Positions 8,275 through 51,714 of a DNA stretch of 64,000 nucleotides are shown in pieces. The stretch covers positions 14,522,931-14,586,930 of the forward strand of contig CAIIXF020000003.1 of NCBI GenBank assembly GCA_903813345.2, read 5' to 3'. The stretch comes from Owenia fusiformis (taxonomy: Eukaryota > Annelida > Polychaeta > Sabellida > Oweniidae). How positions within the stretch are numbered: position 1 is the stretch's first letter; each line of letters starts with the position of its first letter. The notes under the pieces were generated by a model, which was given only the letters and a program-made list of their open reading frames with translations, ran no database searches and was not told the DNA's origin. The position numbers were made by a program, and so were the translations under genes.

Positions 8275-8826
8275 TGGGGCGTCGCCCGCCACTGCATGGT
8301 CACCTCTCTGGTGCCATTTTGTTTTCGTTTTTGATAAGTCTATGCGACATTGTTTCAGCTAAATTAGACGAGTGGTGTACAGCATTTAGAAGCTAATGAT
8401 TTCCTAGATAAAGTAAGAATTTTTTCCTATGAGTTAGCTGTGTACCACCTGCTTTTAGTGTAGTTAGTGCTTTACCTGCTTTCCCTGCTTTGCGTGCTGC
8501 ACTGTGTTTATTTTACTGCAACATTGCTAGAGTAGGACTAATTATCCAGTAGGGCAAGGTTCGTAGTGTATCTAGTAACTAATAAGGATATACCATTGTA
8601 TGATTTGTTGTGGCCGATTTAGATTGGCACATTTTAGTTATTTTTATATGTGTTAGGATTGAAAAGTCTATTTTTACAGAGTCTATTTTTACAAAGCTTT
8701 CTTTTTTATATAAACCTTTTTATAAATATATATATATACACATAGAGTATTTTTATCTTTGCCAAATAACCAACTCACTTGGTAACTGTACAGGTACATG
8801 TTAAACCAGCTTCCAGACAGCTTGGA

Positions 8827-12900: not shown

Positions 12901-13795
12901 AGCCTATGGTAATCCTGGTCCTTCGGGAGCTGCTGCAGTGGTTTATGTGGGTGGACTTAAATCTACACCTATATGTCTTGAGCAACCAGTCTCCCTCATA
13001 GGTAACAACTATTATGGGGAAGTGGTAGCAATAAAGATGGCGGTAGAATATCTGACAACCATAAAGACTAGCAGCAACATCCTGCTCTTGTCAGACTGCC
13101 AACCCGCTATAACAGCATCTTTTATTACTACCAAGTGTAAAAGCATCACAGAGGACATTATTGACACAAGGAAAGCCTGCAAACTGCTATCTTTACAGAA
13201 CAAAACCTTAGAAGTCTACTGGGTCCCAGGTCACCAAGGGACAGAAGGGAATGAAGTTGCGGATAAAACTGCCAAGAAAGCAGCATTGGCAGCCAAATCT
13301 CTCACTGACTGTAAAACATCTAAGTCTGTAGCTTATAATAATATCAAATGTAACGCTTTAGAGAAATGGCAAAATAGGTATAACAACTCCACCAAGGTGA
13401 ACTTTGTTCAGGAATTAATTCCTAAGGTTAAATTGAAAAGTCCAATTGTAAAGACAGGAACTAGGTATTATAGAAATATATGTAACCAAATTATTTCTGG
13501 GCACACCCGTTTACATGGCCATCACCATAGAATTAACCCCGATATTTTATCTCCCAACTGTGACCACTGTAACATACCAGAGACAGTTGAACATTACATC
13601 TTTGCTTGCTCTAAGTTCCAGGAAGAGAGGGAGATTCTATTGGCCAAAGTGCAACAGATACTACTAGGAGCTAAATACAATCCAGCTCTAGACCTACAAA
13701 CAATCACAGGACTCAACACAAGCCTGGACCATAAGTTAAATAAAGAAATTATGAAATGCCTGCAGGCATTTATACAGAAATCCAAGAGATTTTAA
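9908..13795 (+). CDS. Retrotransposon ORF2: endonuclease, reverse transcriptase, RNase H
   Basis: A 1295-aa replicase. An APE-type endonuclease occupies about residues 21-235 (QANIRSIN, ITEIWH, TGDFNGRHPLW, SDHKLISF). Reverse transcriptase lies at about 510-790 (SYRPITLEAQVGKILQRV, AVLDYESCFE, GIPQGSVLSPLLCNLY, catalytic FADD near 697, KILGCTID). RNase H lies at about 990-1120 (VFTDGSAYGNPGPSGAA, YGEVVAIKMA, LLLSDCQPA, GHQGTEGNEVADKTAKKA). A C-terminal cysteine-histidine cluster follows (CDHCNIPETVEHYIFAC, about 1217). All catalytic acidic residues I looked for are present. The ATG at 9908 overlaps the ORF1 stop; a second ATG at 9968, just before the endonuclease, is an alternative start. Confidence 0.95.
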   Translation: MYSNSITIVAATLLLSLLVTMKIFQANIRSINTSAKYIKHISPEASIFCITEIWHPTAESIQRAGLKDWTWISSIRQGREGGGAAIIASSDTKVVKRNDLMRNDIEAAWANVYCKDLAFLLCSVYIPPGNIESWDKFSRVATSALHSKLPVLFTGDFNGRHPLWNDCSINKLGSTIAEFAMIHDLHIFNNHQFTRNETIIDLTIGSGSLTSKISEWAVRDEIYLKSDHKLISFSVGQAGKEEVREYYDLKNANWEKFVSEMEKLCLNWQQNVIAANVEEAYTSLCSIMLKVINDIIPKKKICSKSKGWWNDNLNQQVKALRRAKRRYNKRSDPHNWETYTRLAEEFAESAHKAESSYWDDLFEELDLGNPNMIWKTVMKTQTKKGKKIVQPIIDGNGNIHHTDEDIAETMVKQYGKQHLPVQRYDEWYNFVVRKAKESVQLEKIKIKNTNYNQTCEPFNKDIEFDEIIAAIEKTPAKTAPSPREKILSIFIKKGGITLHKSIWLLSQKCWAEGQLPQEFRIDPKIMLGKPNKNNYNSDRSYRPITLEAQVGKILQRVVSPRLSWISETTSSYCAFQDAYREHRSCSQTVIRLVQSIQEAWNRGEYVIAAVLDYESCFERVFREGLIYKLAQKGINGRLLVYISEYLTNRQFSISVNNHTTPLLPSVVGIPQGSVLSPLLCNLYTADSMDNIGSEKAGFADDNTIWACGADLKEIEKLINTDLNQLTNKWCKRWNMEIAPEKTEVMVFSPPGITSPDINIFIDGRKLQVVSHKKILGCTIDNELKFNLHIENKKKSAFGALAGINNFTSSKSGCSQEVFTMLYKALVIPHFETSISALAAVTEKAVSAYAPVQRAALLRATGCLNSTSTDSLEVLAGVLPLDILLRSRQAQEGVRIATHTESDPIAREFLRWGGSSQTEKTPSCFNIITARLRLHRCPTQPNNYIQHYYHHQDVDIFQPTKATIHNEDFANTKSAQSVRISSVLSEQPDGRTIVFTDGSAYGNPGPSGAAAVVYVGGLKSTPICLEQPVSLIGNNYYGEVVAIKMAVEYLTTIKTSSNILLLSDCQPAITASFITTKCKSITEDIIDTRKACKLLSLQNKTLEVYWVPGHQGTEGNEVADKTAKKAALAAKSLTDCKTSKSVAYNNIKCNALEKWQNRYNNSTKVNFVQELIPKVKLKSPIVKTGTRYYRNICNQIISGHTRLHGHHHRINPDILSPNCDHCNIPETVEHYIFACSKFQEEREILLAKVQQILLGAKYNPALDLQTITGLNTSLDHKLNKEIMKCLQAFIQKSKRF

Positions 13796-16244: not shown

Positions 16245-16535
16245 ACACAAGTGAGTTACATACGGAAAATGTTCCTAACAAGTGAGTTACATACTGAAAA
16301 TGTTCCTCACAGGTGAGCTATACTCTGAAAATGTTCCTCACAGGTGAGTTACACACTGAAAATGTTCCTCACAGGTGAGTTACACACTGAAAATGTTCCT
16401 CACAGGTGAGTTACACACTGAAAATGTTCCTCACAAGTGAGAAATACTCTGAAAATGTTTCTCACAAGTGAGTAACATACTGAAAATGTTCCACACAAGT
16501 GAGTTATACTCTGAAAATGTTCCTTACAAGTAATA
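16245..16535. repeat. 31-bp minisatellite
   Basis: About nine copies of a 31-bp unit, AGGTGAGTTACACACTGAAA followed by ATGTTCCTCAC. Central copies are nearly identical and outer copies diverge. Each central unit carries CACAGGTGAGT on the plus strand, which fits a 5' splice-site consensus, though no gene is known on that strand here. Confidence 0.92.
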
Positions 16536-33127: not shown

Positions 33128-36100
33128 ATGGCAACTAGAAGTTTGACGGAGGTTTACATACTGATGAGAAATAACGCTCTTCAAAATAGACACATATTTT
33201 TGGACCAGGTGAGCTGCAAATGAGACTTTTTGTCCATGATATTTTTCCGGAAGTGATAAAATTGTACACTTGTCAATTTTTAGTTGTCATTCTGCTCTGT
33301 CAGATGTTTGTAACTTACTTAGGTCCAAAGCCTTCTCTATATCCCGGCTTTGAGTGATTGTAACACACGCACAGTTGTCATGGCACAGTTTTATGAAACA
33401 TACCTTTATGAACACATTTGCAGAATATCAGCTTATGTCCCCATTCTGATCGATTGTTAGAGTCAATACGTCCAAATCCAAACAGGGGGGTAAACACGAA
33501 CGGGTTCCAAATAATGGCAAGCAGATCATTGAATTGAATAATAGTACCTCTACTACCTCTACATAATATTTATAGCCTGAAAGATACAATATAATGATGT
33601 ATACCAACAATCTTACAATAAAATAATCAATTATGATGATTTAGGTGTTCGGAATTACCCCCATGCTAGTGTTTGGAATTACCCCCACAAACTCTGTGAG
33701 TTTAAATAAATAGATGTCAGTAATAAATGATTTAAATTTGGGTTTCTTGATATGCAGGGGTGACAGGATCCAGTATCATAAGTTAAGGGTATCATATAAT
33801 GATATACCATCAATCTAATAATTAAAACAATTAAGTTTAGGTTAAGTGTTTGGAATTACCCCCATGCAAGTGTTCGGATTTACCCCCCAAAAAAACTCCT
33901 GTTCGGAATTACCCCCCTAAAATACCTTGTAGTAAAAATGGAATAACCCAGATATTTTTTACAATTTTTCGTAATTTTTTCTGCAAATGCATTCTACAGT
34001 GGATAATACACATAATATATATAGAATCATAGCATAAATGTGCAGTACAGCCAAGCTAACTACATTTTTTGATGGGGGTGTTTGGAAATAGACGTACTGA
34101 CTCTATATATATTTTAATTTATCGAAGTGGAATGTCATCTCTAAATGGCCTCCATTTTTCTGCTGAGTGAGCTTTATAAATGGCGGATCTGTTGAGTCTG
34201 AGGTTTCTTTCCCAAAAGAAATTTTGAAATATCTTGATCCAGCCAAGCAACGCTTCAACTGAAATATAATTATATTCTTATAAATATTTATAAGAATTAT
34301 TAAATAGGGGTTCTAGGTACGTGTGACACTTTTTCTAGATTATATACGAAATCAATGGAGTAACATCTAGCTGTAAGCTAGAGACTCGAGTTAGCTGTAA
34401 CGTCAATCAGCCACCTTTGAATTCCATATCTGAATTCAATAAATTGTTATTGAGAAGTCGAGCATTATGATTTGTGGCTGACAATCGTATCATATTTCAG
34501 TAGGCACTTTGATCAGGGAAAAGCGTGTATAATAATGATGATGAAATGACATGTTTGTCACACAAAAATCTAAATCCACCTCAATTAGCTTAATTATGTA
34601 GGGGTCCTGTGTCAAACTATGACGTGTGTAGTTACTTCCTCATGGAGCTATTATGACCATTGGGCTATTTCAACACATCATGAGCCAATGTAGTCTAGTC
34701 CCAAAAACAAACATGATTGAAATTATAATATTTATTTCAACAGGTACGTAGCCAGGGGGGTTCGATGGGTTCGAGCGAAGCAAACCCCCCCTGGTCAAAA
34801 AATCTTTCAAATAATCATGCAGTTTTACACCATTCTGAGCACTTTTTAAGTAATTTTGGCCATTTTTCAAACAAAATTGTCACAAGTGGAATTTTTCAAA
34901 AGGTGAACCCCCTTGGCCTGTTCAATCACATTTTTTTGAAAATATAAAAAATAAATCAAAATCTCCAATAAGGGTGACCAACTTTGAATACATGTATCTG
35001 GTAGAAAATATAATAACTGTCAGTGATCTCCACAGGATTTTTTCTTAAATGGGTGCTAAATTATCATTTTCACATTTCAGTTCAAAATTGGTCAAAATAT
35101 GCCACACAAAATATTTCATAACACTGACTCATAATTTTTTCTTTAGTTGGCGACTTGGTGAACCACATTTATTATGTCACCACTTCTGATTGTTATAGTT
35201 TCATATTGTTATTTCATATTGTTATCGTTTACATCTTTTTGTGGATAGTGTTTCGCAGTTGGTGTTCGGCATTCTGCATTTCTCATTCATTATTTAGAGA
35301 CTTTATACCTAAATTGAAAATACAAGCACAACATTGAAATATTGTTTTCAACTTTTTTTTACAATAGGGAGTATATTTCAAGATGGCTGCTAGGGTAAAA
35401 GTTTGCAAAGGACGATTCTCGGTTTGGAGAACAGTCTCCTGGGCTAATAATTTTTTTCATGAAAAATATAGAAATATTACCCAAATTAAACTATGAATAT
35501 TCAAAAGAGGACATTTAAATCTACAAGATGTAAAAATAACAAATTGGTCTGAAGCAGGGATAACGATCAATTAGACCGATTCAATAAAATACAAGTCTCG
35601 ATTTGGGGAAAAAAGTTCATAAGTGTACTGCGCTAATATTTTTTTGCGAAAAATCTAGAAATATTACCCAAATTAAATTATGACCATTCAAAAGAAGACC
35701 TTCAACTCTATATTATGTAAAAAAATCAAATTTGTCCGAAGCAGGGATAATGCTCATTTATATTGATGAACTTCGTTCTCCAAACCGAGAATCGTCCTTT
35801 GTTACCTTCCCAGGGTTCTCATCTGAAAACTTTTAGACCCGTTTTTTTCGTGTCATCATGACAAATCCTCAATCGGGTGACTTTAAACTTATACAAAGTT
35901 TGACCTTTGACATCTCAAACTTTGAGACATTGAGATCAGAGATTGGAAATACTGAAGATTATTAATTTAATCACAATGACCATTTCAAAAAAGGTTTGTG
36001 CCTTTCTATTCTTTGTTTGTATCCAGTTCTTATGGCAATGTTATTAAAACCCTGTGCCCATGCGATCACCTGAGACCCTTCGACTAATAGCCTTGCCCAA

Positions 36101-39100
36101 GTCGGTATTTTTTTACTTATCTGATCTTGAATTATTACCGCCTTGTACAATCCAATACATCTCCGCTGTTATTATGCTGAAATATTCAACGGTTTCGAGA
36201 TTTCCATAATACCTACGCTATCAGGGGTATCGCGAAACCTTATTGATTGACAGATATCGCGTGGACACGACGTGTGACTTCAGGCTGAATGACCAATCAA
36301 AACGTTATCAGGCTGCATAAACAAAACAAACTTCCCATCTACAACTTGAAATTCCATGATCTGATCGAGTGTTTCGTTATAGTTACATTAATACAATATA
36401 TTATGTTATTAAATGTACATTGGAAGGTAAGAGTCATTAATATAAATTAAATCATGCGATTCAATGTTGATTTAAAACTGATTTCGCGATGAAAATGCAC
36501 GAAGACCTAGTCCAATGTAGCGGGTCATGTTGTCGTCGATCGGTGATTGAATCTCAGCCTACATGTTCAGCGATCGTTTCAACGTTTCAATTGTTGAAAT
36601 GTGAGAAGATTGCCCCGATGCCCCGGCATCCACTAAACTCTCATTGATATTTATCTGATAAATATTTGTATTTTCATGATGAATTCGTGCTCATATTCGT
36701 GCAAGATTTGTTAGTGAAAAGTCCCGGTGAAAAGTGTACTTGTTTTTGACATTGCATAATAATGAGCTAACGCTACAGGGCCGTCGTTGATTGGTCAAAT
36801 TTTACCGACACCAACAAACTGTCGGTAAAGCACGTGGCTTTCTCTTTGGTACAAGGCGGTCATAATAGAAATCAAGATAAGTAAAAGAGACCGACTTGGG
36901 CAAGGCTATTCGACTAACTGGGTGTCAAGAAATTTTTGAGATGAAATTTTAGAAAAACTCTGTCTACACACTGCATCCTATCAGGCAAAAAATTGTCTAC
37001 ACATATACCAGGGGTTGCATATATTGGCTTAGCAATGGTACCACAAGCGTTCTTCTTCAAGGGTTTTTCTATCGTTCATCTCAAACATTTTGACAGTTGT
37101 TGTAGCAATATAAAATGCATGAATATATTCAATCCGAAGTCTAAAAGCCTAGTGAGAACCCTGCTTAACAATATTTGTACTTTATGATAAGATTTCACTT
37201 TTTTGCTCATATTTTAAAATGTTTGGTGTTTATTTTGTGAATTAATGTTTACTCAAATTAATTTGATATGCCAAAAGCCATTCAGATTCATCAGAGTCTT
37301 ATCTAAAGCATATTTTAATGGATAGAAGACACTGTGGATCTACAAAAACTACGAAAGAGTATATATGGTTGGTCAAAGAATCTGGATGACAACAAATTCC
37401 CTAGTTCTTCAGCGGTTTCACTAGTATTTTTCACAACAGGCTAAATAAATGAAAACAACAGGCAAAATTAATGGAAATCATAAATTTAACAGGAAAAAGT
37501 CCCTAAACGCAACAGGCGATTTTGTGAAAACAACCAGTGAAAAGCAAACGCCTGTTGCCTGCTGCTAATGAAACCCCTGGTTCTGAAATAATATGTCATT
37601 GTTTCTTTTGGATTATCATGCTCAATGTATTATCCCAGATCTTATTCTTTATCTTTGTTTCAAACAAATAAATGAGAACACATTCCATAAGTTATTTCAC
37701 TTGAATGATTTATCACCAACTCACTTTACTGGGCAGCGAATATACATACCTGTTGAGACTATTTAAAGATTGAAAACTACAATAAACCAATAGCTAGCTC
37801 CAATAAACCACCATATTTATAACAATATTAAATCCATTTTCAGGGAAATGATGACAGAGCGTCGCTTATTACAAGCTCGGGTGACCTTGAAATGGGATTT
37901 TCAAAAAGCAATAGACTACCTCCAGAATGGTAAGTGAAGCAAGAGAGTGCCGTTTATTTTAAAAATGAATTGATAAGTAAGCATTTTAAATAGCATATAT
38001 TAAAGCTTATATTAGTTCACTTATAAAGCGATCTCCACAGGATTTTTTTCCAAGTGGGGGCACAATTCAGACAAAATATGCCCATTTTTCATGATTTTTC
38101 TCGTATTCAAGTGGGTGCAAATGGATTTTCAGGTAAGTGCAACGCGAGGCTATTATCAAAATCTCAGGTGGGTGCTGCACCCACTTGCTTTAATGCTGGA
38201 GAGATCACTGTTATAGCCTATTCATGTTTGTTGGAAAGATGTATAATGGTAAATGGATTTGATTTCAAGCCCAAAAATTCTGTAGAATTTCCGTATTCTC
38301 TCTAATGCGCGCACAGTTTCAATGAGCCTACGTGCGACTTTTATGTTGAATATTATAGCAAGAAAACACGAAGTTTAATGCATTAGTTTCAATTATTTAT
38401 ATAACAAGATATTGAAGATGATTATATGGATTCAGATCTAGCAAAAAGTAGTAGTAGTACTAATGACAATGATTGTTTCAGTTTTATAGAATAGAAGAGT
38501 TTTCCCCATGGGAAAATGATATGGGAAACATTGTTTTCCACTTTATCTAAAAGGAATTACTTATTCCTTTAAAGGGGTTAACTATGTGTCAAAATGCAAC
38601 ACCATGCGTGTGATAATCCCACTTGGGGGTCATAGACACTAGAACCTATACATATGTTACATTGACTTTAATTAATAAAAATTGTTTATTCCAATGCAGG
38701 ATAGATGGAGTAGAGGAAATACAGTTTGAGATTACTAGGATTAAGCTGAAAAGTAAGTCATTATAAGCTGAGAAGTAAGTAATCAAGCTGAAAAGTAAGC
38801 TATTAAGCTGAAAAGTAAGTTAGTAAGCTGAAAGTAAGTCACTTATGTGTCTGATAATTATAGAGCTAACAAAAACTAAAAACTGAAAAAGCAAGCCCAA
38901 TGTCCCATTTAAGAATGCCTTCTAACTATTGAAAATGGATTCTAATAATACTATCACACAAGAATCTAACTTATTGAGACTCAATCAACTTGAGTTCTTC
39001 TGTGATATGAGGGAGTTTAAGCTTGCACTGTTTTTCACAACCTAAACGCAAATGTAAGTTATTTAAGTGATGCATTTGTATGGGCGATTGGATTGTATAT

Positions 39101-42100
39101 GGGCGATTGGTCATATGTACAGGTTGGTGTTTCGATTTTATATGCAAGCTTAAACTCTCTATTGAGGATTTCTGCAAGGGTGTATTGACATGAGCCATTG
39201 AATATACACAATTGACTTAAAAGCTGCATATCATCATGTCCTCATGCATGGAGATAGACACAAAATCCTCATGTTCTCAGAAGAACTGAAGTTGATTAAG
39301 TCTCAACAAAAAGATTCATGTGGGAGAGTATTGGATGATTCCGTTTTCAATACTAAGAATAGGGGTTCTTAAACATGACTTAAAGTTAAAACTCAGGCCT
39401 TTTTCAAACTTCGGTTAGCACCAAATTCTTAAACATTAGCCCAGTAATTAAGAATAAAATATTAGTGCAGCAGCTGAAAAACAGTAGCTACAATTTGCAA
39501 ACATGAGCACAAATCTAAGCTTGTATTCACGAACTTTCGGCTATCGCTGACCTAAGTAATGGGTTAATTTGTAGCAATTAATAATGACCTTCAATCTGTT
39601 TGCTAATTTGATCATTTCAGTGGCATAAAAAATCATGGGATCACTGCTCGTCAACTATCAGTTTGTTCGTCAAATAAACTTCAAAATGACGGGTCAATTT
39701 CTGAAAATAGGTTAATCCGGTAGCCGACAGCAGATTCGCGAATGCAAGCTAACATATTAACTCAGCTAATTCTATAAATTGAAATTATTATAGTGCGTGA
39801 CCTGGCGAGCTTACATGACAAACATCTTAATAGACCAACCCTTGATGACAGTATAGATGAGGAGCATGCAATAGAAATACAGACACAAGAAACCACACAG
39901 GTAACGTAATTACACTACATGTACATGTACTTGCATGGTTTATAGGGGTTGTTTGAATTTTCTTTTTGTTCAGTTGTAATATTACATACATTTAATACAA
40001 TATACTATTCAGCTTGATATCCTTCTGGATACATAAAGCATTTAATTACACTATTTTGTTATAAAATAATGGCTTGTTCACTTGTTTACACTTAAAATTT
40101 CCCTGAAAATAAATGACCTATCTAAGAATTTTGCAAAATGCAAGTCAAAAAATACATTTCGGCAGTAAAAATTTGCAAAATAGATTTTAATAAAAAAAAC
40201 TTCATTATTTTGTATTTTTCAACCCCTTTATCCAATACACTGTTGCTCATATATTTGGCATATTTTATAGGACCTGCTACTAAGACTATGTGTTTAAACA
40301 TATTGAAGTTGCAAAGCTGCAAGAATAACATTTTACTCATTTGTGAACATTTTTATATATCTGTGAACATTTTTATATATTTGTGAACATTTTTATGTCA
40401 CCACCACAAGGGATAACATATTGTTATAGTCTCCAACTTTTTTTGTGGATGGTGTTTTGGGGTTGATGTCTGTAACAAATGGCAGGTGGTGACATTTTGC
40501 ATGTTAATGTTTTGCTATACTGTATATTTGTTAACATATGTATATATTTTTTAATATGTATCCATTTGTAAAGATTTGTATATATGTGTTCAGATTTTTA
40601 TTTCAGTTATGATTTTACATCTGAAGTGTACAGCTGACCATAGATGTCACTTGTTCTTAAAACTATCTTAAAGCTAGAAAATTGAATACCCTGTTCATTT
40701 TTTTCAATGAGGCTTTATTCTATAGAGTTTTGTATAAAGAATCTTTGACATCCTTTCTCGATTGTAATGTCAATTATAAGTGATGTGACCCCCCACCTCC
40801 CCCCTACCTGAATAAGACCAAGGCTCTGATTCATCTAGGAAAATACAGCAATTACTTTCAAGTCCACGTATCTCATGCTAACATACTTTTACAGTCTCCA
40901 ACATTTTATTGAATGGTATTTAGTGGTTGGCATTTGGTGTCTGTAACAAATGGTAGGTAGTTACATTTTTCATGTTGATGCCTTGTGTTCATATAAGTTC
41001 TATTTATGATCAGAACTCACTTGAGTTTGGGTGTCTCGTGTCATATTTGCTCTACAGCAACCTTATGGCGACCATAGTTCCCTGAAATTGAGAAATTCCT
41101 GAGGTAACCATATAAAATCTATGGTCGCCTTACAGTTGCCATATAGTCTCCAACTGTTTTGTGGACAGTGTTTGGTCATTGGTGTTCGGTGGTCAGTGTC
41201 TGTAACAAATGGCAGGTGGTGACATTTTACATGTTAATGCTTTGATTAGAGACCATGGAAATCATAACATGGAGTAACAACTTTCATTTCTCTGGTCTTT
41301 AAATAGAAACAAGCCTTGGCCACGCTGCAGGGTTAGACTGCAGGGCACACAGTTGCCATATTGTCAATGTGTGGTTAGAGTATGTTTACCCTGCAGCCAC
41401 CTAGCATCTGCCTTGGTGTTTGTCAAAAACCTGTAGCTGCTGTTCAAAGGCAGTTTATGGCAACCCTAGGATTTTAGCCTAAGATTCCAAGCCAAGAAAC
41501 TCAGTCATGTTAATCCAATATGCTTACATAAGAGACAAAAAAATTGAATAAAGGATCTAGTGCACCCTCCATTATGATCTCCCAATGAACAAAAGTAAGT
41601 TCATCTGATTTTTCAAAATAAATAAACTGCTTTTATTATTATTACATAGTATTTTGTTGACCTATATTCAGCACTGTATTGATGAATGGGCCACTTATTA
41701 GGACCAATATTCAATCATAAAGTGGACAGGGGTAGAGATGCCCAACCAGGAAGTCTTTTTGTGTCTGTCAAAATCCATTTGCATCCTACACATCCCTACA
41801 TCTTATCCAAACATGTTATTAATTAATGAAACATAACAGTATAATCTTTGGATTTACAAAGTTGTATGGGATTTCATAAGTGTAAAAGTTGCTTTTGAAG
41901 CATTTTTCTATAGCCATTTTGTAGGGAAAAAAGTGATGAAAGAAATGTATAAACTTTTAATTTGAAGTATGAATGAATTGCAAACTTTATATTTGCACAT
42001 CTGATCTGATATACCATTTGTGTCATATTGTGAAATTATTTAATTTGCAATCGATTCAGGTCATAGTGTATTTATTTTTGTGAAAATCAATAGAAACCAA

Positions 42101-45100
42101 TGGCCTTCATTGAAATCTGATGATATCCACATGTTAAGTCAATGGAGCACATCCAATGTCAAGCCAATACACCCTTGCTGAACTTAATGACCTCAACCTC
42201 AGCCCATGTGGGTCCAAACGCTTAAATATTTTCCACAGTATTATGTGACATTGTATTCTTTATGTTACACCTAAAAATGATTCATTTTGTTCATGGGGAA
42301 ATCATAATGGAAAGTGCACTAGACCTTTTTATGATATTAATTTCAGCTTTGTGTTTTTTTAATTGCTGTCTACCGTCATATAACATGATTGTGACTGTTC
42401 ATCTGGATTCGTTTTCATATTTCATAAGAGAGAGTCATAATGAAGAACTAATTTTAAACATTTTTCTTAGAACCAAGCAACACCACATAGCGTGTGCCAA
42501 ATCATAAAGTATAAAATTAAGCGAAAAATGGAATTTCACACCTGAGGTGTCGTAACCAAAACCATATATTAAAAAATGATATAACATCAAAGCATTGAAG
42601 TTACAGAGTTCGTTAATTAAGGGTGAGATGAGTAATGGGTTGAGTTGACTTGGAGTTAGGTTGACAAGTAAAAACCCATTCATGGTTCAAGTGTATAAGT
42701 ATTTCACTTCTTTGATTTGAGGAATGAATGACGCCCTTTTAATGAAGGATGGTAAATACCCTTCCAAATGGTTTTTGAGCTTGCTCATATTATTTCTTGT
42801 CATATTTCAGATGTTAATTGTATTATATCAGAAAAAAGTTATAAAGGAGGAGGGAAGTTAGTGCAACAGATTTTGGACAGTCATATGTTTGATTTTGGCC
42901 ATTTCCTGGGGATTTAAACAGGTGCATATGTTAGGCGAATGCATTACCTCCAGGAAAATCACTTCTAGAGATGATAAAATAATTTCGACTTTGAGACAGG
43001 GTAGATGCAAACAACCCACCCACATGTTTTTTCTAACACATTTTCCTGATTTTCAACCCCTTCCATCCCTGCTTTTTTAATTTTTCTTGCATCAATATCA
43101 TTTTGACACACAGATAATCCCTTAAAAGGAATAAATGATTCCTTTTAGATAAAGCATCCTCCGATCACAGGGCTTCAAAATCCAGAATATCTTCTTTCTT
43201 TTTACCCCCTGCTATAACCAAGTTGGACGCGCCCGATTAAACTAAATCACGTGATCTTATTATGCGCCGATGACGTATACATGATTTCTGTCGCAGTGTT
43301 GCGACAGCCAATCAAATTGCGAGTTCTTAATCGGGAAAATGCTAACTGCTTATAGCAGGGGGAAGAAGGAGGTACGGATTCTGGACACCTGCTTAGGAGG
43401 ATGAGATAAAGTGGAAAACAATATTTCCCATGTTATTTTCCCTAAAATGCAACATATAGATGCAAAAAAAATTGAAAAAGCAGGGGTGGAAGGGGTCGAA
43501 AATTAGGAACACATTTCAGAAAAAACATGTGGGTGGGTTTTTTGCATCTACCCTGTCTCAAAGTCGAAATTATTTTATCATCTCTAGAAGTGATTTTCCT
43601 GGAGGTAATGCATTGGCCTAACATATGCAATTGTTTAAATCCTCAGAAAATGGCCAAAATCCAAAATATGACTGTCCAAAATCTGTTGCGCTAATTTCCC
43701 TCCTCCTTTACATGTATTTTTTTGATTTTGCCAAAATGTGAACATCCACAATTATTGTTTGGGAGAAAAGAGGCTTTGTTATCAAGCTTTGAAATCTCAT
43801 CGGAGTCTTGTTTTCAACGAGACTTTAAGATGGACTTACCAGTACATTTTGTTTCTACTTGATGATATCATTAATATACTTTTATACTGGAATAACTTCG
43901 ATTTTCACAGTTTTTTCTATATTTTATTCAATTTTTTATGATTCCAAATTTTCAGAAAGAGATTGTGTCAAGAGAGGATTTTTCTAAGAGTCGTGTGGTG
44001 GCCCATGTAAGATCTCTTCATGTGAAACTTTGTTTTGGATCTGAAACACTTTATTCATAAAGTCCAAACAATGTGACTTTTAAAAATGACAAAATAATCA
44101 CTATAATCAAATTATATCACTATACTTGTAACCATGGCAACAGCTTTATGAAAAAAAGTAAAATGTGTTAAAATTAAGGGATATACAGCGTGTCCAATAA
44201 ATAAGGTGAAAGATATTGTAACTTTCTTAATATTGCACCCATCTTGATGAAATTTTCAGAGTTTGTAGCCCAAACCATTTTACCTTTATTCTGTGAATTT
44301 ATAGCGTCTTCTATTTGATTGGACAGAGTTGTGGTTGCTATAGCAGCCGAAACAACAAAAAGGCAGGGCAAGTTTGTTTACGTCACAACTTTCCAAAACA
44401 TATTTATTCTTTCTGATAGCTTTATTCATACTCCCAGGTCTATTACTACCACAATTATAAGATAAAAGCAGTCCTAAAGTCCCATTGTTATGAAAATAAG
44501 CTATTCAACATAATGTTCATCTCTAGCTATACACTTCTTATGCCTATTCACCCATTCTCTAAACACACTTTCAAACCCATTCTTCCCCATTACCTGAAGT
44601 CTTGCTAAGACACGTGATCTGAGTTCACACACAGCTATGCTCACCAGTAAAACTATTAGGGCACTGGGGCTACCCCTACTTGCACTCTCCATATATCCCA
44701 GATCTGGCACCCGATGACTTTTACTTATATGCAGAACTCAAGCTTGACTTGAGAGGAAATAAATTTGGAAGCACTGATTAAGAGTGGGTGAAGAGCCATA
44801 AGAACTGTATAGCTAGAGATGGACATTATGTTGAATAGCTTATTTTCATAACAATGGGACTTTAGGACTGTTTTAATATTGTATCTGTGGTAGTAATAGA
44901 CCTGGGAGTATGAATAAAGCTAGCAGAAAGAATAAATATATTTTGAGAAGTTGTGACAAAAACAAACTTGCCCCGCCGTTTTGTTGTTTCCGTTGCTATA
45001 GCAACCACAACTCTGGCCAATCAAACAGAAGACGCTTTAAATTCACAGAATAAAGGTAAAAGGCTTGGGCTACAAACTCTGAAAATTTCATCAAGATTGG

Positions 45101-48100
45101 TGCAATATTAAGAAAGTTACAATATCTTTCACCTTATTTATTGGACACCCTGTATGGTCTCATGTGGGAGTAATTAATATTGTAATACGATGCAAATGGT
45201 ATGATTTTAGGCTGAATTTTTGTAATGGTTGCCATGGCAACCACACACCTTTAATAAGGAAAGATGTCATGTCATACAATACAAAAAAATACAAAACAAC
45301 ATTACCTTACCTTGATGTATGTCACAAATCATATTCTTTCCTTTAAAGCAACATAAAAAATCAACTATGAAAAATGCAGATTTTACAGCTTTTGAAAACA
45401 TTTTAGGTTTGATTTTTAGTGAAATTTTTTTAATAAAATTGATTGCTATGGCAATGGAAATAATTGAAGTGAAAATTTTGCTGAAATTCAAAGAGATATT
45501 ATATATACTAAATTATAGTAGAGGTTTTGTGAGATTTCAGAAAATACCATGAAGACGGTTTCACCTGGGTTGTAGAAAAATCTCCTCTTAACTGAAACAA
45601 TATTAGACAGTCTTTAAAAGTTTTTATTGTTATTATCTATTTACATCGCAATACAGAAAATAAGTGATTTTGTTGTAGCCATTGTCAATGTTACAAAATT
45701 ATAAATATACTCATTCATTCTCTTTCAAAAAAGAAAACAAACAACAGATTTACTCTTTTACTCAAATTTTATATGCTGATGCCTAGGGATAAAGGAGCTC
45801 TGCTCAATAAGAAATTTTCAAGATGGTAGCTGAATTTCAAAAAGGCTGCCATTTTTGTAAAAAAACGTAATAATTGATAACCCAAATACCAGTGGATGGA
45901 TTTTCTTCAGATTTTAAATCCTGATACCTATAAGGGACAAAGAAGCTCTGTTCAAGAAATTTTCAAGATGGTGTCTATTTATCAAAATATGCTTTTTCTG
46001 TGGGTTTTGCTACTCCGTGGAGTTGCTGTTTTCTATTTTTATGGTCTAGTGTATGTGTCCACTCTGATCCAGCATTATACACAATAATTACTCTGGATGT
46101 TAAAAAGGTGACTTATATTCCCAACTTGTTTGGAGTTGCTGTTTTCTAGTTTCCTTATGGTCTAGTACATGAGTCCAGCATCATACACAAAAATTACTCT
46201 AAATGTTAAAAAGGTGACTAATATTACCCAACACGCTTGGAGATGATTTTGATCACTGGCTACAGCTTGGGTGATCATGTCATTAGAGCCAAGTTTGATG
46301 ACCTCGTATGTCATGTCTACACTTACTTTTGTGTAAAATTGTTCTAGTTGAGCTATCAAACTGTCCCGCTGCTTTAGTAAGCCCATTTCTAGAGAAGCAA
46401 CCATGACGTCGCTTGGGGCAGTAATGTTGAATTTAAATTTTTCTTTGTAAGTGGAAATAAAACTATCCCAATGACTATATTCTTTATAGATGTAGCCAAC
46501 AGGATTGAAATTTTCTTCAATAATACCCTTCAAAACATTATTTTTATTGTTGTTATTGTTATCTTTATAAATCTTGTCAGTATAGGAACTATTGTAGTTC
46601 AGCATACACACAAGGATCACTTGGACAATGACATTGTCTACGATTGAACACCTAGAGCCCAGTTTTGTGTGATGGGTCGGGCATTCACTTGCAACACATT
46701 GATGTTGGTTTTCATCGCATTGAAATTGAAGATTATCCAGTCCAAAAAGCCCATCTGCCTCTATTTTTATTCCGTATGTATCAGATGGTGCCATTTCTAC
46801 CACTATTGCAAGACTAAAAAGATTGATAGTTTTTGGTTCAGTATTACGTGCAGGAGCAGTCATGCACTTTACATAGTCCCTGCGCACTGCACTTAGATTA
46901 AAGAAACAATGTAGGCAATAAATGTTGTAGAATGGATTGGGAAAAAATTTATAAGTTATAGGATTTTGACCAGCTGTGGCACACTTTTCTGATATTCTTG
47001 AATCCTTGCACTGAGAGTCACAATTGTACTGCATTTTCATACAATGTCGGGCATTTACTGGGGCAGTTATGTCAATGGTACAAGCAGAGTTATTGACTAG
47101 ATCAAGTAAAAGATCAATGCCAGCATGCAGGAACTTTTCCGGGCTGATTTCATCGGATTCGCAACCAATTGAGACATTCCATTGCACAAATGCAGTAACT
47201 CCATGACATATTGCACAGTACTTGTTTCTATAATTTTCCCCGGAGAAGAAATCGATGACTGGTATGAGATTGAGAATTCCATCACGTGCCTGGCATTCTT
47301 TAATCAGTTTGGAATTGTTTTGGTTTGAAGGGCATTTGACAATCATATAGACCATTATGGTAGATTCGGTATCTTCGCTGTCAGAAACTTCTGCACATTC
47401 GTAGAATTCCTTATTACTTTTTCTTAGATCGTTAAACCCATCTCGATCACATATTGTGGTGTAGTCAAGACAACAGTCTCCATATTTGGAGCACTCGGAG
47501 TCACATTGACAGAAAAGTTCTTGCTTTAATTCCCCACATCTGCCGTCACATGATTTCTTAAGACGTTCTTCGGGGTCATCTAGTGAACAGATTTGAATGT
47601 TATTCTCATCAGCTTGACACTCATCTCTCAACACCAAACCAGGACCAGTTGTTGCAAAATCAGAACCAGTTGTTGCAAAATCAGGACCAGTTGTTGCAAA
47701 ATCAGGACCAGTTGTTGCAAAACCAGGACCAGTCGTTGTCATGTGATCAAGTTGTGTTTTGTTCGATGCAGGATCATTGATTTGAAAAACATCAGAGAAA
47801 ATTGGTTGACTCACCAGAAATTCAGTTGACTCATGAGTTGCATTTATCAGTTCTGGAGGAACTTTTTGATGCTGAGTTTCAACATCTTGACCAGTGTGGG
47901 TCATATCATCAGCTCTGCTGTAGTTTGTAGTATCATTGACACTCAGCTCTGAAGTTGTTATCATCATGGTCGCTAAACTCACATAGAGAATCATCCAGAC
48001 ATTATTGTATCTCATTTTCAAACTATACTGTACTACTACTACTACAAGTAGAGTTGCTAACCAGAACTAATAATAACCAATCCAACACAATATGCTGCTC

Positions 48101-51100
48101 TTATATACCGAGGCTTTGTGAAGCAGTTATAAATCATTTTAAAATCACATGTTTTTTTCACGTTTATGTAATCAATTTAGTACCCCTGACATCGAACTGT
48201 GTATCTTCTGCTTTGGTGAATTTGCTTTAAGACTCTTGAATACTAGGAGACAAAGGGTTTAATTCCTCCTAATCTATCACTAATCTAGGATGAAATAATT
48301 TAGGTGCTCTAGAAAATTGAATTCAAGATGTTCATGAGATGCCAAAGACTAGTCCAGAAAACAGACTCTTGATAATTTTGTACTTCAGATGTTCATGAGA
48401 TGCCAAAGACTAGTTCAAAAAACAGACTCTTGATAATTTTGTATTTCAGATGTTCATGAGATGCCAAAGACTCCAGAAAATAGACTCTTGATAATTTTGT
48501 ACTTCAGATGTTCATGAGATGCCAAAGACTAGTTCAGAAAACAGACTCTTGATAATTTTGTATTTCAGATGTTCATGAGATTTCAAAGACTCCAGAAAAT
48601 AGACTCTTGATAATTTTGTACTTCAGATGTTCATGAGATGCCAAAGACTAGTTCAGAAAACAGACTCTTGATAATTTTGTAGTTCAGATGTTCATGAGAT
48701 GCCAAAGACTCCAGAAAATAGACTCTTAATAATTTTGTACTTCAGATGTTCATGAGATGCCAAAGACTAGTTCAGAAGATAATGCTCTCGATATGTTTGA
48801 ATTTAAGATGTTCATGAGATGCCAAAAGACTAGTCCAGAAAACAGACTCATGATAATTTTGTACTTCAGATGTTCATGAGATGCCAAAGACTAGTCCAGA
48901 AGATAAACTCTAGATCAAACCAGGGTACAACACAAGAAAGAAAACTATCACAAAATATTGTGTCCTCATTAGCTAGGACTTTACAAGAACTCTCTACAAA
49001 CTTTAGAAAAAGCCAATCAGCGTATTTACGGAGTAAGTACAGTGTTCTATACAAATATATTACTGTTTCTCAACTCCATGTAGTTACTTTGAAGTAACAG
49101 GTACAATTTAACAAAATGGTGGAACTGCCTATGTTCGAGTTCAGTAAGATTTTTGTTTTCTTGATTTAAACTTTCTTAATAAGTCAAGTTGCAAATTATA
49201 TCACGTTTTAGTCCTTCGCTTCTGTATTGTTGATGGACGTCTTGAATATTGCCTAAGTTACATTATTTTTCTAAAAAATTTGGGTAAAAAATATATTATG
49301 TAGCAATGTTGAAAATGATACGCAACTTAAGTCTTGCTACACTATGGTTGAAACAAATGATTAAATATAAATACATAAAGTTTCACCCAGTTTGAAGATA
49401 ATTAATTAAAGTGTAAAAATAAGAGAAAAAATGTAGTCTCAAATTTTTGTGCAGGGTACTATGTAAATTTTATTCTCTCTCTTGCTGATTATCACAACCA
49501 AAGTGTATATTTATATGGAATCTGAGAGTAAGTATCAAATTTAAAGATAAATATGAAGCCAATTTTATTTTTTAGGTATGTAAGGGAGCATGTCAAAAGT
49601 TCAATGTAGCACAAAAAGCTATATATTATCAGTTAGGTCCCAGACACCCCCCCTCCCCCTCTTAACTAGATATGGAAAATGTTGACACGTATGATTTAAA
49701 AAAAAAGTAAATCATCAAACACCCTTGTTGATGAGTCTTTCATATTCATCAGACGGGGTTTTATATATTGGCTGTGCCATAATAGTGAAAAAGAAGTCAA
49801 AATTTGGAAAACTCTGAAATATTTTCAATTTGGAGGCGTGTAAAGAGAATTGTGGGATGAAAAATGACTGATGCAATTCCACGAGGATCAATGTCGGGGA
49901 AGCTTATTTTCGGGTTTCAGACACCCCCCCCCCTATTATAATAATATATATATATATATAGGTTATTTGACAACATTTTTCTTTTGACATGCTACCTAAA
50001 TGAAAAGAATTGATAAATAAGTACATGTAATCGGTTATGAAGTTTTATTCTATATACAAATGTAATCATATCACAGTCTCACAGAACTTTCTCTAAGTCT
50101 GTGTTCATATGGACTATTTCCATCAAATCTTCTATGTTTACAGGATTAAAAGGCCGTGAGGAAAGATCTAAGCAGTATTTTGACCTGCCTGGGAATTCCA
50201 TGGGGACGTCAGGGTTGGATGATGGTCCTGAGGAAACACTGTTTGACAGGGTATGTGTAACACACCGTGAAGAGTTAGGTATAGTCAGAAAAACAAGAAT
50301 GAATAATGACTTTTGGTCCATCTGTCTTTCTGTCCTTCCATCTGGGCAATAACTCAAATACCCTCTGTCTGATATTCGATACGCATGTGCCCCATGTGAG
50401 TGGGAAGTACAAGTTTTGTTAGAAAGCAGGATTTCAAAATGGCTGCCAGTTTCAAAATGGTGTTTCCTGCTGGAGCTGGAAAAGTAGTACTACAAGTCTA
50501 AAGTGATTTAGTTGATACTTTACATACTTGTATATAGGGCATAAAGCATGGACGTTTAAAATTACAATTTGAAACCCAGTGGTGTCATTATTTTTGTGTT
50601 CTTTATATTGTAACCACAACACATTTTCTTGATAGCTATATCATATATATTGCTTTCAAGGGTTTTAAAATAGATTTAAAATGATTGTCTGTTGCTTTAC
50701 TATTTCATTAGGGTTTTACGGAGGTGCAACTACAAGAAGTGGATGATAACACACAACTTATACAGCAACGAGAACAAGAAATAAACAATGTGGTGAAATC
50801 CATCACTGAACTAAATGACATTTTCCGAGATATGGCTTCTATGATAGTCGACCAGGTGAGAGTTAATCGTCGCAAGGGTATATGTTTTAGAATGCAAATT
50901 AGAGTGGAAAAGCATGGAATTTGTGAGAAATAAAGTAAATAGGCAAAAAGTCAGTGCTTTGAATTGTAAAGAAATTCCAGAAAATGAAACAGTTCAGTCA
51001 AATTTTAGAGAAAAATTAAGTGGAATAAGCATGATGATGAAAGTAAATAAGTGCATTGTATATAGAGATTAAAGGCTAATGTAATTTGATTTTGAATTTA

Positions 51101-51714
51101 TCCTATGCATAGATAGAGATGTCACAGTTTCCCAGTTTTTGACTATATTTTGGTCAAGATGATTCAGTTTGGGACAGAAAGGATTAATATCCGGACATAT
51201 ATTCCTACCTAAAAATGCATAAAAACATAATTAATGGTGAGAAACACCTCAGAATTCATTCTAAATATTCATAATATTTTCGATCACCCTTCTTAGCAAT
51301 ATAAAAGGTGTTAATAGTGGACCTGCAATTTCAAGTTGATGGTAATGGTCCCATCCTGAAAATACCATTATTCCTGATACCAAGACCATTTGTATCTCCA
51401 TCCCTATCACATTTTATGTGGACCGTGACACCTCAAAACATAAGGCATGCAAATATATCAATAACTTAGAATGCAACACATACCATACCTAATTGTAATT
51501 ATAAACTTTAAGTTATTTCTGTTTCCAGGGAACAATATTAGATCGTATAGACTATAATATAGAAAGTACAGCTACTACTGTGGAAAAGGGACTACAACAA
51601 TTACAAAAAGCTGAAAAATATCAAAAGAAAAATAGGAAAATGCTAGTCATAGTTGTACTAGCTGTTGTGATCATAGTTATGTTAATTATTTTAATAGGAG
51701 TCAAATCAAGGTAG
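33128..51714 (+). CDS. STX16: Syntaxin-16, Qa-SNARE (8 exons)
   Basis: A target SNARE for endosome-to-trans-Golgi fusion. Coding exons: 33128-33208, 37844-37929, 38700-38752, 39794-39900, 48870-49032, 50144-50250, 50712-50855, 51529-51714. All splice sites are GT-AG and the phases join into 308 aa (human about 325). The N-terminal peptide [17 protein letters not shown], which in the family binds VPS45, is well kept. A conserved WIDGVEEIQ block is at 56-64 and [17 protein letters not shown] at 76-92. Habc helices run to about 195. The SNARE motif spans about 210-275 with the zero-layer glutamine at Q247, the last codon of exon 7. Residues 285-304 are the C-terminal anchor ([16 protein letters not shown]). 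Tandem copies of its own splice sites flank exons 3 and 5. Confidence 0.97.
33458..34105. mobile_element. Inverted-repeat element with GGAATTACCCCC blocks
   Basis: Ends are TAGAGTCAATACGTCCAAA and the inverse of TTTGGAAATAGACGTACTGACTCTA trimmed to its core. Inside, GTTCGGAATTACCCCC-type words recur four to five times as short internal repeats. No transposase is readable and no clear target duplication was found. In STX16 intron 1. Confidence 0.68.
34741..34925. mobile_element. 'CCCATAGCCAGGGGG' family MITE, copy 2
   Basis: TACGTAGCCAGGGGGGTTCG at one end and GTGAACCCCCTTGGCCTG at the other. The middle matches the 4629-4808 element (CATGCAGTTTTACACCATTCT against its inverse). In STX16 intron 1. 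Confidence 0.65.
35021..35108 (+). mobile_element. Family B MITE, truncated copy
   Basis: CAGTGATCTCCACAGGATTT then CAAAATTGGTCAAAATATGCC in two pieces; the right half is missing. Confidence 0.7.
35160..35285 (-). repeat. Family A dispersed repeat, copy 7
   Basis: Reverse orientation in STX16 intron 1: ATTATGTCACCACTTCTGAT, then GTGGATAGTGTTTCGCAG and TTGGTGTTCGGCATTCTGC. It is interrupted by a short TTTCATATTGTTA duplication. Confidence 0.7.
35407..35800. mobile_element. 394-bp 'AAAGGACGATTCTCGG' element, copy 1
   Basis: Terminal inverted repeats are AAAGGACGATTCTCGGTTTG and its inverse CAAACCGAGAATCGTCCTTT. The interior contains two diverged copies of TAGAAATATTACCCAAATTA. A nearly identical element lies at 54936-55329 and a diverged one at 52859-53120. 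No coding frame. In STX16 intron 1. Confidence 0.85.
36087..36908. mobile_element. 822-bp non-autonomous DNA transposon with 8-bp target duplication
   Basis: Terminal inverted repeats of roughly 75 bp begin TAGCCTTGCCCAAGTCGGT and extend to ACCGCCTTGTAC with one small bulge. The octamer TTCGACTA flanks both sides (36079-36086 and 36909-36916). The interior is richer in CpG than the surrounding intron and has no transposase frame. The boundary could shift by one base because of the shared T. A palindromic miniature of the same family is at 14657-14745. Confidence 0.88.
37410..37580. mobile_element. 'ACAACAGGC' foldback repeat, uninterrupted copy
   Basis: Ends AGCGGTTTCACTAG and CTAATGAAACCCCTGG are inverted repeats, and the interior has several CAACAGGC or GCCTGTTG words. 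The same repeat at 54864-55428 is split by the 394-bp element, so this copy shows the pre-insertion state. In STX16 intron 1. Confidence 0.75.
38026..38210 (+). mobile_element. Family B MITE with 5-bp target duplication
   Basis: A nearly complete 185-bp copy, flanked by TTATA on both sides (38021-38025 and 38211-38215). The right end GAGAGATCACTG is intact and the left end reads AAGCGATCTCC. It lies only about 100 bp after STX16 exon 2. Confidence 0.85.
38743..38842 (+). repeat. 20-22-bp tandem copies of the STX16 exon 3 donor
   Basis: AAGCTGAAAAGTAAGT, the last bases of exon 3 with its 5' splice site, is followed by four more copies starting at 38765, 38785, 38805 and 38825. GT donors stand at 38753 (the productive one), 38775, 38795, 38815 and 38834. 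Reading past the first donor meets an in-frame TAA at 38764-38766. Confidence 0.9.
38892..39385. mobile_element. Foldback element, 'TTGAGACTCAATCAA' family, copy 1
   Basis: Outer arms contain CCCAATGTCCC ... TTGAGACTCAATCAACTTGA on the left and GTTGATTAAGTCTCAACAA ... AATAGGGGTTCTTAAAC on the right. A shorter relative is at 55695-56025 with the same arms. No coding frame. In STX16 intron 3. Confidence 0.7.
40395..40515 (-). repeat. Family A dispersed repeat, copy 8
   Basis: A complete reverse copy: ATGTCACCACCACAAGGGAT, TTGTTATAGTCTCCAACTTT, AACAAATGGCAGGTGGTGAC and TTTTGCATGTTAATG. In STX16 intron 4. Confidence 0.82.
40888..40985 (-). repeat. Family A dispersed repeat, copy 9
   Basis: ACAGTCTCCAACATTTTATT, GTGTCTGTAACAAATGGTAG and TTTCATGTTGATGCCTTG; the outer inverted end is missing. 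In STX16 intron 4. Confidence 0.75.
41138..41246 (-). repeat. Family A dispersed repeat, copy 10
   Basis: ATAGTCTCCAACTGTTTTGT, GTCTGTAACAAATGGCAGGT and TTTACATGTTAATGCTTTG. It lies 150 bp after copy 9 in the same direction. Confidence 0.78.
41247..42841 (+). other. STX16 intron 4, section without assigned element
   Basis: No exon fitting STX16 and no readable gene. Short frames such as 42262-42507 and its antisense partner have no domain. A fragment near 42115-42190 resembles the interior of the 'TTGAGACTCAATCAA' foldback family. Confidence 0.4.
42842..43709. mobile_element. Large foldback element, about 265-bp arms
   Basis: Left arm about 42842-43100 and right arm 43440-43709 are inverse copies: AAAGGAGGAGGGAAGTTAG against CTAATTTCCCTCCTCCTTT, and GACTTTGAGACAGGGTAGAT in both directions. 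The roughly 340-bp spacer holds a smaller inverted pair (GGATTCTGGACACCTGC with an inverse near 43190). Matching mirrored frames in the arms are a by-product. A piece of the spacer recurs near 52070-52145. Confidence 0.85.
44186..45152. mobile_element. Foldback derivative of a mariner-like transposon
   Basis: 967 bp flanked by TA (44184-44185 and 45153-45154). The ends are CAGCGTGTCCAATAAATAAG and the inverse of CTTATTTATTGGACACCCTG. The inverted arms are about 330 bp. Each arm encodes, on opposite strands, the same transposase C-terminus: [18 protein letters not shown] ending at about 44501 (minus) and [18 protein letters not shown] ending at about 44838 (plus). The plus copy is preceded by [16 protein letters not shown] (about 44698), the mariner catalytic-D region. 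A stop breaks the frame, so it is inactive. Confidence 0.85.
45155..46161 (+). other. STX16 intron 4, between mariner relic and nested gene
   Basis: AT-rich with no exon seen. A duplicated word group (GTGGAGTTGCTGTTTTCTA and TATGGTCTAGT at about 46016 and again at about 46131) indicates a short local duplication of about 115 bp. A remaining 3' exon of the minus-strand nested gene could lie here but was not recognised. Confidence 0.35.
46162..48015 (-). CDS. Somatomedin-B / Methuselah-like ectodomain protein, nested in STX16 intron 4
   Basis: A single open frame of 617 aa from the first ATG at 48015. A hydrophobic N-terminus ([16 protein letters not shown]) looks like a signal peptide. A threonine-rich stretch follows with five copies of a 7-aa unit TTGPDFA. 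A somatomedin-B domain with its cysteine pattern ([28 protein letters not shown]) comes next. A long cysteine-rich region then includes [12 protein letters not shown], a motif I associate with ectodomains of Methuselah-type GPCRs in invertebrates. Many NxS/T sites are present. The frame ends in a short hydrophobic tail without seven membrane helices. A possible donor (TTGG then GTAATA, near 46225) lies before that tail, so the true C-terminus may be in an unrecognised exon. The role is unknown. Confidence 0.82.
   Translation of the reverse strand: MRYNNVWMILYVSLATMMITTSELSVNDTTNYSRADDMTHTGQDVETQHQKVPPELINATHESTEFLVSQPIFSDVFQINDPASNKTQLDHMTTTGPGFATTGPDFATTGPDFATTGSDFATTGPGLVLRDECQADENNIQICSLDDPEERLKKSCDGRCGELKQELFCQCDSECSKYGDCCLDYTTICDRDGFNDLRKSNKEFYECAEVSDSEDTESTIMVYMIVKCPSNQNNSKLIKECQARDGILNLIPVIDFFSGENYRNKYCAICHGVTAFVQWNVSIGCESDEISPEKFLHAGIDLLLDLVNNSACTIDITAPVNARHCMKMQYNCDSQCKDSRISEKCATAGQNPITYKFFPNPFYNIYCLHCFFNLSAVRRDYVKCMTAPARNTEPKTINLFSLAIVVEMAPSDTYGIKIEADGLFGLDNLQFQCDENQHQCVASECPTHHTKLGSRCSIVDNVIVQVILVCMLNYNSSYTDKIYKDNNNNNKNNVLKGIIEENFNPVGYIYKEYSHWDSFISTYKEKFKFNITAPSDVMVASLEMGLLKQRDSLIAQLEQFYTKVSVDMTYEVIKLGSNDMITQAVASDQNHLQACWVILVTFLTFRVIFVYDAGLMY
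47638..47742 (-). repeat. 21-bp coding tandem repeat
   Basis: Five copies of a 21-bp unit (plus strand GACCAGTTGTTGCAAAATCA) that encode the TTGPDFA repeats of the nested gene. Being a multiple of three, they keep the frame. Near identity suggests that copy number may vary between alleles. Confidence 0.9.
48325..48905 (+). repeat. About 60-bp minisatellite copied from the STX16 exon 5 acceptor
   Basis: Nine copies of TTTGTACTTCAG then ATGTTCATGAGATGCCAAAG precede the true exon 5, whose ATG is at 48870. Copy ATGs stand at 48328, 48389, 48450, 48508, 48569, 48627, 48688, 48746 and 48808. Spacing alternates 61 and 58 bp in the middle, a 119-bp higher-order unit. Copies 2 to 8 keep an AG acceptor after a T-rich tract. 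Translated copies terminate within about 14 to 24 codons. Confidence 0.95.
49574..49998. mobile_element. Possible inverted-repeat element with C-rich blocks
   Basis: GCATGTCAAAAG at about 49589 is mirrored by CTTTTGACATGC near 49983, and two CAGACACCCCCC blocks lie inside as direct repeats. A short TA microsatellite sits next to the second block. In STX16 intron 5. Tentative. Confidence 0.4.

Follow-up and report, generated by a model that had tools for sequence, protein, structure and literature searches.

Mirage minisatellites have been described in amphioxus, in Adh3 and in the globin genes BflGb6 and BflGb9, with Canestro 2002 given as the founding paper in PMC3087553. As set out there, they consist of tandem copies laid over an exon-intron boundary, at acceptors or at donors, with units of 10-72 bp in Adh3 and 150-160 bp in the globins; many copies keep the AG or GT, and the arrays exhibit concerted evolution inside and diverged units at the ends (PMC3087553). 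Amphioxus arrays of this type were reported not to disturb splicing in PMC3087553 and PMC3902484, the latter also recording imperfect repeats at the 5' and 3' splice sites of PGBD5. Among the matches listed in our literature search, mirages were recognised only in these amphioxus reports (PMC3087553, PMC3902484). Earthworm metallothionein genes, with exon-4 duplications that are reported to be missing from the final transcript and with intronic minisatellites, share with our locus an annelid host and tandem repeats in introns, but the available text of their description presents these repeats without mention of their spanning splice sites (PMC12783039).

The locus considered here is an STX16-like gene in a 64,000-nucleotide stretch of DNA from the annelid Owenia fusiformis (the window, to which coordinates refer unless another locus is named). 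An annelid source also fits four genome matches to PF16915 (best 38.1 bits, cut-off 27), the erythrocruorin linker domain of annelid giant haemoglobins. The acceptor of exon 5 and the donor of exon 3 each lie in a tandem array whose repeat units span the exon-intron boundary, are of minisatellite size (58-62 bp in ten copies at exon 5, about 20 bp in five copies at exon 3) and mostly keep the AG or GT, as in the amphioxus mirages; in addition, the exon-5 array has dimers in its interior and a diverged unit towards its end, a trait of concerted evolution. The STX16 arrays thus appear to be mirages, a kind of array already described in amphioxus. They differ from the amphioxus examples in lineage and in that 253 exon matches were surveyed for their frequency; the amphioxus arrays have also been studied for variation in copy number and by RT-PCR, whereas those of STX16 are known from the sequence of one assembly.

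Two splice-spanning arrays in STX16

With a human syntaxin-16 query, tblastn returned a collinear series of exons from 33128 to 51711, and the SNARE domain (PF05739) was found at 51532-51690 with 73.4 bits; it is on this exon series and this domain that the identification as STX16 is based. The peptide joined from exons 3 to 5 had Syntaxin_2 as its sole Pfam match, at 19.2 bits and below the cut-off of 26.5. Exon 3 (38700..38752, plus strand, donor GT at 38753) was placed by its junction with exon 4, which gives an open reading frame, and exon 4 (39794..39900, plus strand), the 5' neighbour of exon 5, by tblastn and junction reading. Beyond intron 4, which is about 9 kb long, exon 5 (48870..49032, plus strand) is bounded by an acceptor AG at 48868-48869 and a donor GT at 49033, and its frame matches syntaxin-16. 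Nested in intron 4 is an opposite-strand ORF (46165..48015, minus strand) that encodes a somatomedin-B domain (34.6 bits) and contains a 21-bp in-frame coding repeat at 47636-47738; its 5' end faces the exon-5 array, with a TATA-like GGTATATAAG upstream at 48100-48109. Elsewhere in the window, a 1295-aa ORF at 9908-13795, which to the eye looks like the polyprotein of a LINE with its reverse transcriptase and RNase H, follows a zinc-knuckle-like ORF (8779-9915).

The exon-5 acceptor, together with about 45 nt of the exon start, is present in ten tandem copies, with exon starts at 48328, 48389, 48450, 48508, 48569, 48627, 48688, 48746, 48808 and 48870 and hence spacings of 61, 61, 58, 61, 58, 61, 58, 62 and 62. 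The genuine acceptor is the tenth and last copy (48870); the other nine are decoys (48328..48869, plus strand), each with the exon-5 start followed by acceptor-like sequence, and the AG is kept in 9 of 9. TRF scored the array at 896 for a period of 61 (9.8 copies) and at 954 for a period of 119 (4.9 copies, 92% matches), placing it far beyond chance given a threshold of 50. An initial sequence-only reading, which had proposed tandem decoy acceptors copied from exon 5 together with the exon start, is thereby borne out, the copied exon start being about 45 nt long vs. the 30 or so that it claimed. In a search with a unit profile (nhmmer, 47901-48327), we found no decayed unit upstream of 48328, and by eye the units carry no strong donor.

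The copies differ from one another by substitutions and small indels, and both TRF and pairwise identity resolve units 2-7 (48389..48745, plus strand) into three tandem 119-bp dimers (61+58): identity is 97-98% among units 2, 4 and 6 and 95-98% among units 3, 5 and 7, vs. 90-95% between the two sets. Unit comparison sets apart the two terminal 62-bp units, 8 and 9 (48746..48869, plus strand), with unit 8 diverged from the others (79-85% identity) and looking by eye like the real exon-5 continuation, and unit 9 having an additional A as well as a T-to-A change that creates CTCAT at -20 of the genuine acceptor. The alternation of 61 and 58 bp described in the sequence-only reading therefore applies to units 2-7 but not to the remaining units. 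Alpha-satellites, to which that reading had likened the array, are built of higher-order repeats; the likeness extends to the local dimeric order but no further, as the STX16 array occupies one locus of about 0.6 kb and matches a coding exon, and the 119-bp dimer, compared with the whole genome in a search that skips very common words, had 6 matches, all within the exon-5 array. Such local dimers are ordinary minisatellite turnover.

The exon-3 donor array consists of five tandem copies of about 20 bp (38740..38839, plus strand; TRF, 20 bp x 4.9) that read AAGCTGAAAA/GTAAGT, with the slash at the exon-intron boundary. The coding donor is the first copy (38753), from which a junction with exon 4 at 39794 would continue the coding match; the decoys are at 38775, 38795 (GTAAGC), 38815 and 38834, three of the four keeping the GT in register and the fourth being one base off. 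Within this one gene, the coding donor is therefore the first of five copies and the coding acceptor the last of ten. Extension of exon 3 to any of the four donor decoys leads to a stop after four codons. Entry at a decoy of exon 5 was expected to destroy the message, and a stop is indeed met from all nine, although the TCT TGA proposed for most copies is found in six, with TCT TAA in one and a stop after 23 codons in copies 8 and 9. As for the view that these acceptors are near-perfect, seven of the nine are good, but the lowest scores belong to the copies at 48328 and 48808, which have AAG as their last three bases. We also observed in the window a 31-bp x 9.2 array (16246-16531), several units of which carry a consensus-like donor (CACAG/GTGAGT); no exon was identified beside this array.

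Frequency of splice-spanning arrays and quality of their decoys

Exons for a frequency estimate were chosen without regard to repeats, from two large conserved families, dynein heavy chain and myosin head. The dynein models yielded 88 (PF08393) and 93 (PF12774) exon matches, of which 160 of 181 were examined within 127.6 kb, and the myosin head model (PF00063) yielded at least 93 matches, with 65 of 210 candidates scored, all 93 being examined within 87.9 kb. These loci were run through TRF and the candidate arrays then read by eye, showing splice-spanning arrays at 6/160 dynein and 4/93 myosin exon matches. This amounts to 10/253 matches, or 10 of 506 exon ends (2.0%, 95% CI 0.95-3.6%), bearing in mind that the ends of HMM matches locate splice sites only roughly and that the matches are not all independent exons. 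Together with the donor array of exon 3, these ten speak against treating the exon-5 array as a peculiarity of STX16.

Among the dynein loci, acceptor arrays were found in L006 (37 bp x 10.5) and L017 (87 bp x 5.9), and donor arrays in L010 (39 bp x 2.4), L012 (121 bp x 2) and, twice, L011 (30 bp x 7.1 and 59 bp x 7.2). The myosin loci contributed one donor array (L033, 34 bp x 4) and three acceptor arrays, in L034 (260 bp x 4.2), L051 (61 bp x 4.5) and L039 (32 bp x 8.2), the last of which reaches the locus edge, so that its decoy count is a minimum. The arrays of L010 (6698-6792, 39 bp) and L012 (7933-8179, 121 bp) belong to dynein paralogues and sit at a seemingly equivalent donor (MVLSSLLSN), apparently independently of each other.

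Several other repeats were considered and not counted. Those at L005 934-1020, L015 182-421, L017 369-414, 5376-5426 and 6100-6234, L018 3056-3084, L033 4133-4220 and L039 432-701 adjoin or lie near a splice site without copying it; L010 6828-6867 lies inside its exon, and L015 661-698 is an A/T-rich repeat downstream of a donor. The repeat at L053 5283-5320 (17 bp x 2.2) spans a probable myosin donor (AATCA/GTAAGT), with a second copy (AATAAGT) that is devoid of GT, and is a possible decayed or nascent mirage. Near exons outside the Pfam models, two 41-bp arrays, likewise uncounted, carry a donor-like CAG/GTATGT in the unit, one beside dynein exons (L014 2758-3265, x 12.4) and the other beside myosin exons (L054 3156-3321, x 4); these are possibly further mirages. 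The sample also revealed, in L027 and L028 (G000:C9:37986009-37994334), a tandem series of twelve matches that cover one and the same part of the myosin head (profile about 18-84) and look like clustered alternative exons, and three close matches to one stretch of dynein AAA_6 (about 56-164) in L016 (G000:C9:7082562-7087388), which are perhaps duplicated alternative exons.

Tandem arrays cover 6.35% of the dynein sample, 8.0% of the myosin sample and 7.1% of the window. We compared their placement at the exon matches with 1000 random rotations. The number of exon ends overlapped by an array was 7 vs. 18.3 by rotation for dynein (P = 0.005) and 5 vs. 12.0 for myosin (P = 0.009), these ends being counted mechanically, whereas the count by hand is 6 and 4; with arrays of three or more copies, the corresponding figures were 4 vs. 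13.5 (P = 0.001) and 5 vs. 10.6 (P = 0.03). Exon ends are thus overlapped by arrays 2-3 times less often than expected at random, which is a depletion and not an enrichment. This depletion implies some selection against arrays that span splice sites, meaning that they are not cost-free, and is more in keeping with tolerated by-products than with a device. A genome-wide enrichment of tandem donors was also sought with a triple AGGTAAGT at 17-47 bp spacing and rejected, with 122+100 matches vs. 189+163 for the reversed motif, in counts where matches overlap and long arrays dominate. Together with the depletion at exon ends, the lack of an excess of tandem donors speaks against a dedicated device.

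To judge the decoys as competitors, we aligned 62 of them, from 12 arrays (the two of STX16 and the ten of the sample), to their own genuine sites. Of the 62, 57 have the GT or AG in register; the remaining five comprise donor 5 of STX16 and the last L011 donor, each with GTAAGT one base off, two L010 decoys whose sole GT is poor and displaced by one base, and one L017 decoy without AG. Scored with weight matrices that were trained on the genome's own exons, the same exons as in the scored sample, 12 decoys were better than their genuine site, 21 tied and 29 worse, i.e. 33/62 score at least as high as their own genuine site, and 49/62 lie at or above the 25th percentile of genuine sites. The range among arrays was wide: six of the nine STX16 decoy acceptors outscore the genuine acceptor, 9/10 decoys of L006 fall below theirs, and so do both decoys of L010. 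Use of a decoy would bring a stop or a frameshift in 56 of the 62, the six that stay in frame being those of the 30-bp-unit array of L011. In the remainder of STX16 intron 4 (39951-48240), 37 of 435 AGs also equal or exceed this 25th percentile, indicating that false acceptors are ordinary there and that the unusual part of the array is the exon start carried along with them.

Choice among the copies

In all 12 arrays, six at donors and six at acceptors, the coding copy is the outermost one on the exon side. Sequence beyond the coding copy gave one weak match, at L017 +131 with 10/27 mismatches and inside the exon, which we take as chance. The script that aligned the decoys assigned genuine status to the outermost exact match, and the alignment alone is therefore not independent proof of this pattern; the genuine site itself was defined by coding homology. 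Moreover, since an array placed on the exon side would disrupt the protein and be lost to selection, the 12/12 pattern is partly one of survivorship. With the coding copy outermost throughout and 33/62 decoys scoring at least as high as their genuine site, it is probably position rather than strength that decides. With the coding donor first and the coding acceptor last, a choice centred on the exon would explain both arrays of STX16, but a one-way scan or a first-come rule only one of them.

Based on these data, we consider it probable that the exon-5 array is a splice-boundary minisatellite, or mirage, in which the copy adjoining the exon body would be the one most likely spliced. We lean, though with limited confidence, towards the broader proposal that about 2% of exon ends lie inside copies of their own splice sites and that the spliceosome would pick the exon-proximal copy regardless of strength. 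As to origin, we surmise that a local tandem duplication chanced to span the intron-4/exon-5 junction, and that slippage or unequal exchange may then have multiplied the copies and homogenised them; the exon-3 donor array and those at about 2% of the sampled exon ends would have arisen in the same way. Exon definition would favour the copy that gives the shortest exon still having a partner site and the rest of the exonic signals, and occasional transcripts spliced at a decoy would be removed by NMD. Rogers in 1989 and Zhuo in 2007, both cited in PMC3087553, are said to have described intron gain by tandem duplication, which shares with these arrays the tandem copies with splice signals; unlike in that process, STX16 showed neither an exon nor an intron that could be identified as new.

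Another way for the spliceosome to settle on the last acceptor of exon 5 would be a better branch point, the CTCAT at -20 that one T-to-A change created, in place of the TTGAT or TTAAT at -17 of most decoys. Predicted pairing with U2 is indeed best for the genuine site, at -3.1 kcal/mol, vs. -2.1 for decoy 1 (CTAAT at -45), -0.4 for decoys 2-7 and +0.6 for decoy 8, with decoy 9 devoid of a branch-point candidate. However, this difference was noticed post hoc and is one change among several; as a general rule it was rejected, since the discrimination that is marked in STX16 is absent from five other acceptor arrays, with the genuine copies of L006, L034, L039 and L051 having no yUnAy candidate and that of L017 equalling 3 of its 7 decoys. 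We consider such local discrimination unlikely. A regulatory role, in which poison acceptors and the exon-3 poison donors would be used in a controlled manner and NMD would set the level of STX16, with copy number as the dose, is decidedly doubtful. Poison exons are known from the NMD-coupled splicing of splicing factors, and a premature stop is likewise what use of the STX16 decoys would bring, be it after any of the nine acceptors or the four donors; that two arrays occur within one gene and that most of the exon-5 decoys outscore the genuine acceptor would also suit a rheostat. Yet arrays are found as well in unrelated dynein and myosin genes, six decoys of one L011 array stay in frame, and a stop or frameshift is so general over all 12 arrays that it is no mark of STX16.

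The exon-5 array begins about 220 bp upstream of the TATA-like GGTATATAAG that precedes the somatomedin-B ORF, and might on that account be taken to act from upstream as a promoter or enhancer of this opposite-strand gene in intron 4. This appears very improbable, given that the units match exon 5 of STX16 and that exon ends of dynein and myosin genes bear arrays built in the same way. An assembly artefact or haplotype collapse is hardly credible: tandem arrays are prone to misassembly, and one amphioxus mirage was judged to be aberrantly assembled in its draft version (PMC3087553), but the copies in our array differ from one another and there are further arrays at many distinct loci. Returning to the splice-boundary minisatellite, we note that the sequence-only reading had left two options, that the spliceosome ignores the decoys or that the array tunes STX16 output, and that the former fits better, because the decoys mostly keep their signals and arrays at exon ends are rarer than random, and also because the amphioxus arrays were reported as harmless to splicing (PMC3087553, PMC3902484). 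For gene annotation, these arrays call for caution, as decoys can mislead predictors.

The choice among near-identical splice sites is usually studied with engineered minigenes. Here, evolution has provided sets of 2-11 similar sites, some at donors and others at acceptors, with one gene having both. If our reading is true, every array would amount to a competition experiment set up by nature, in which the effect of position can be told apart from that of sequence, and exon definition would be measurable directly from ordinary RNA-seq; RNA-seq of Owenia fusiformis could thus weigh exon definition, a first-come rule and the strength of branch points against one another at many loci. Should the sample prove representative, exon ends inside splice-spanning arrays would number in the thousands genome-wide, and our data suggest that splice-boundary minisatellites are more than an amphioxus oddity.
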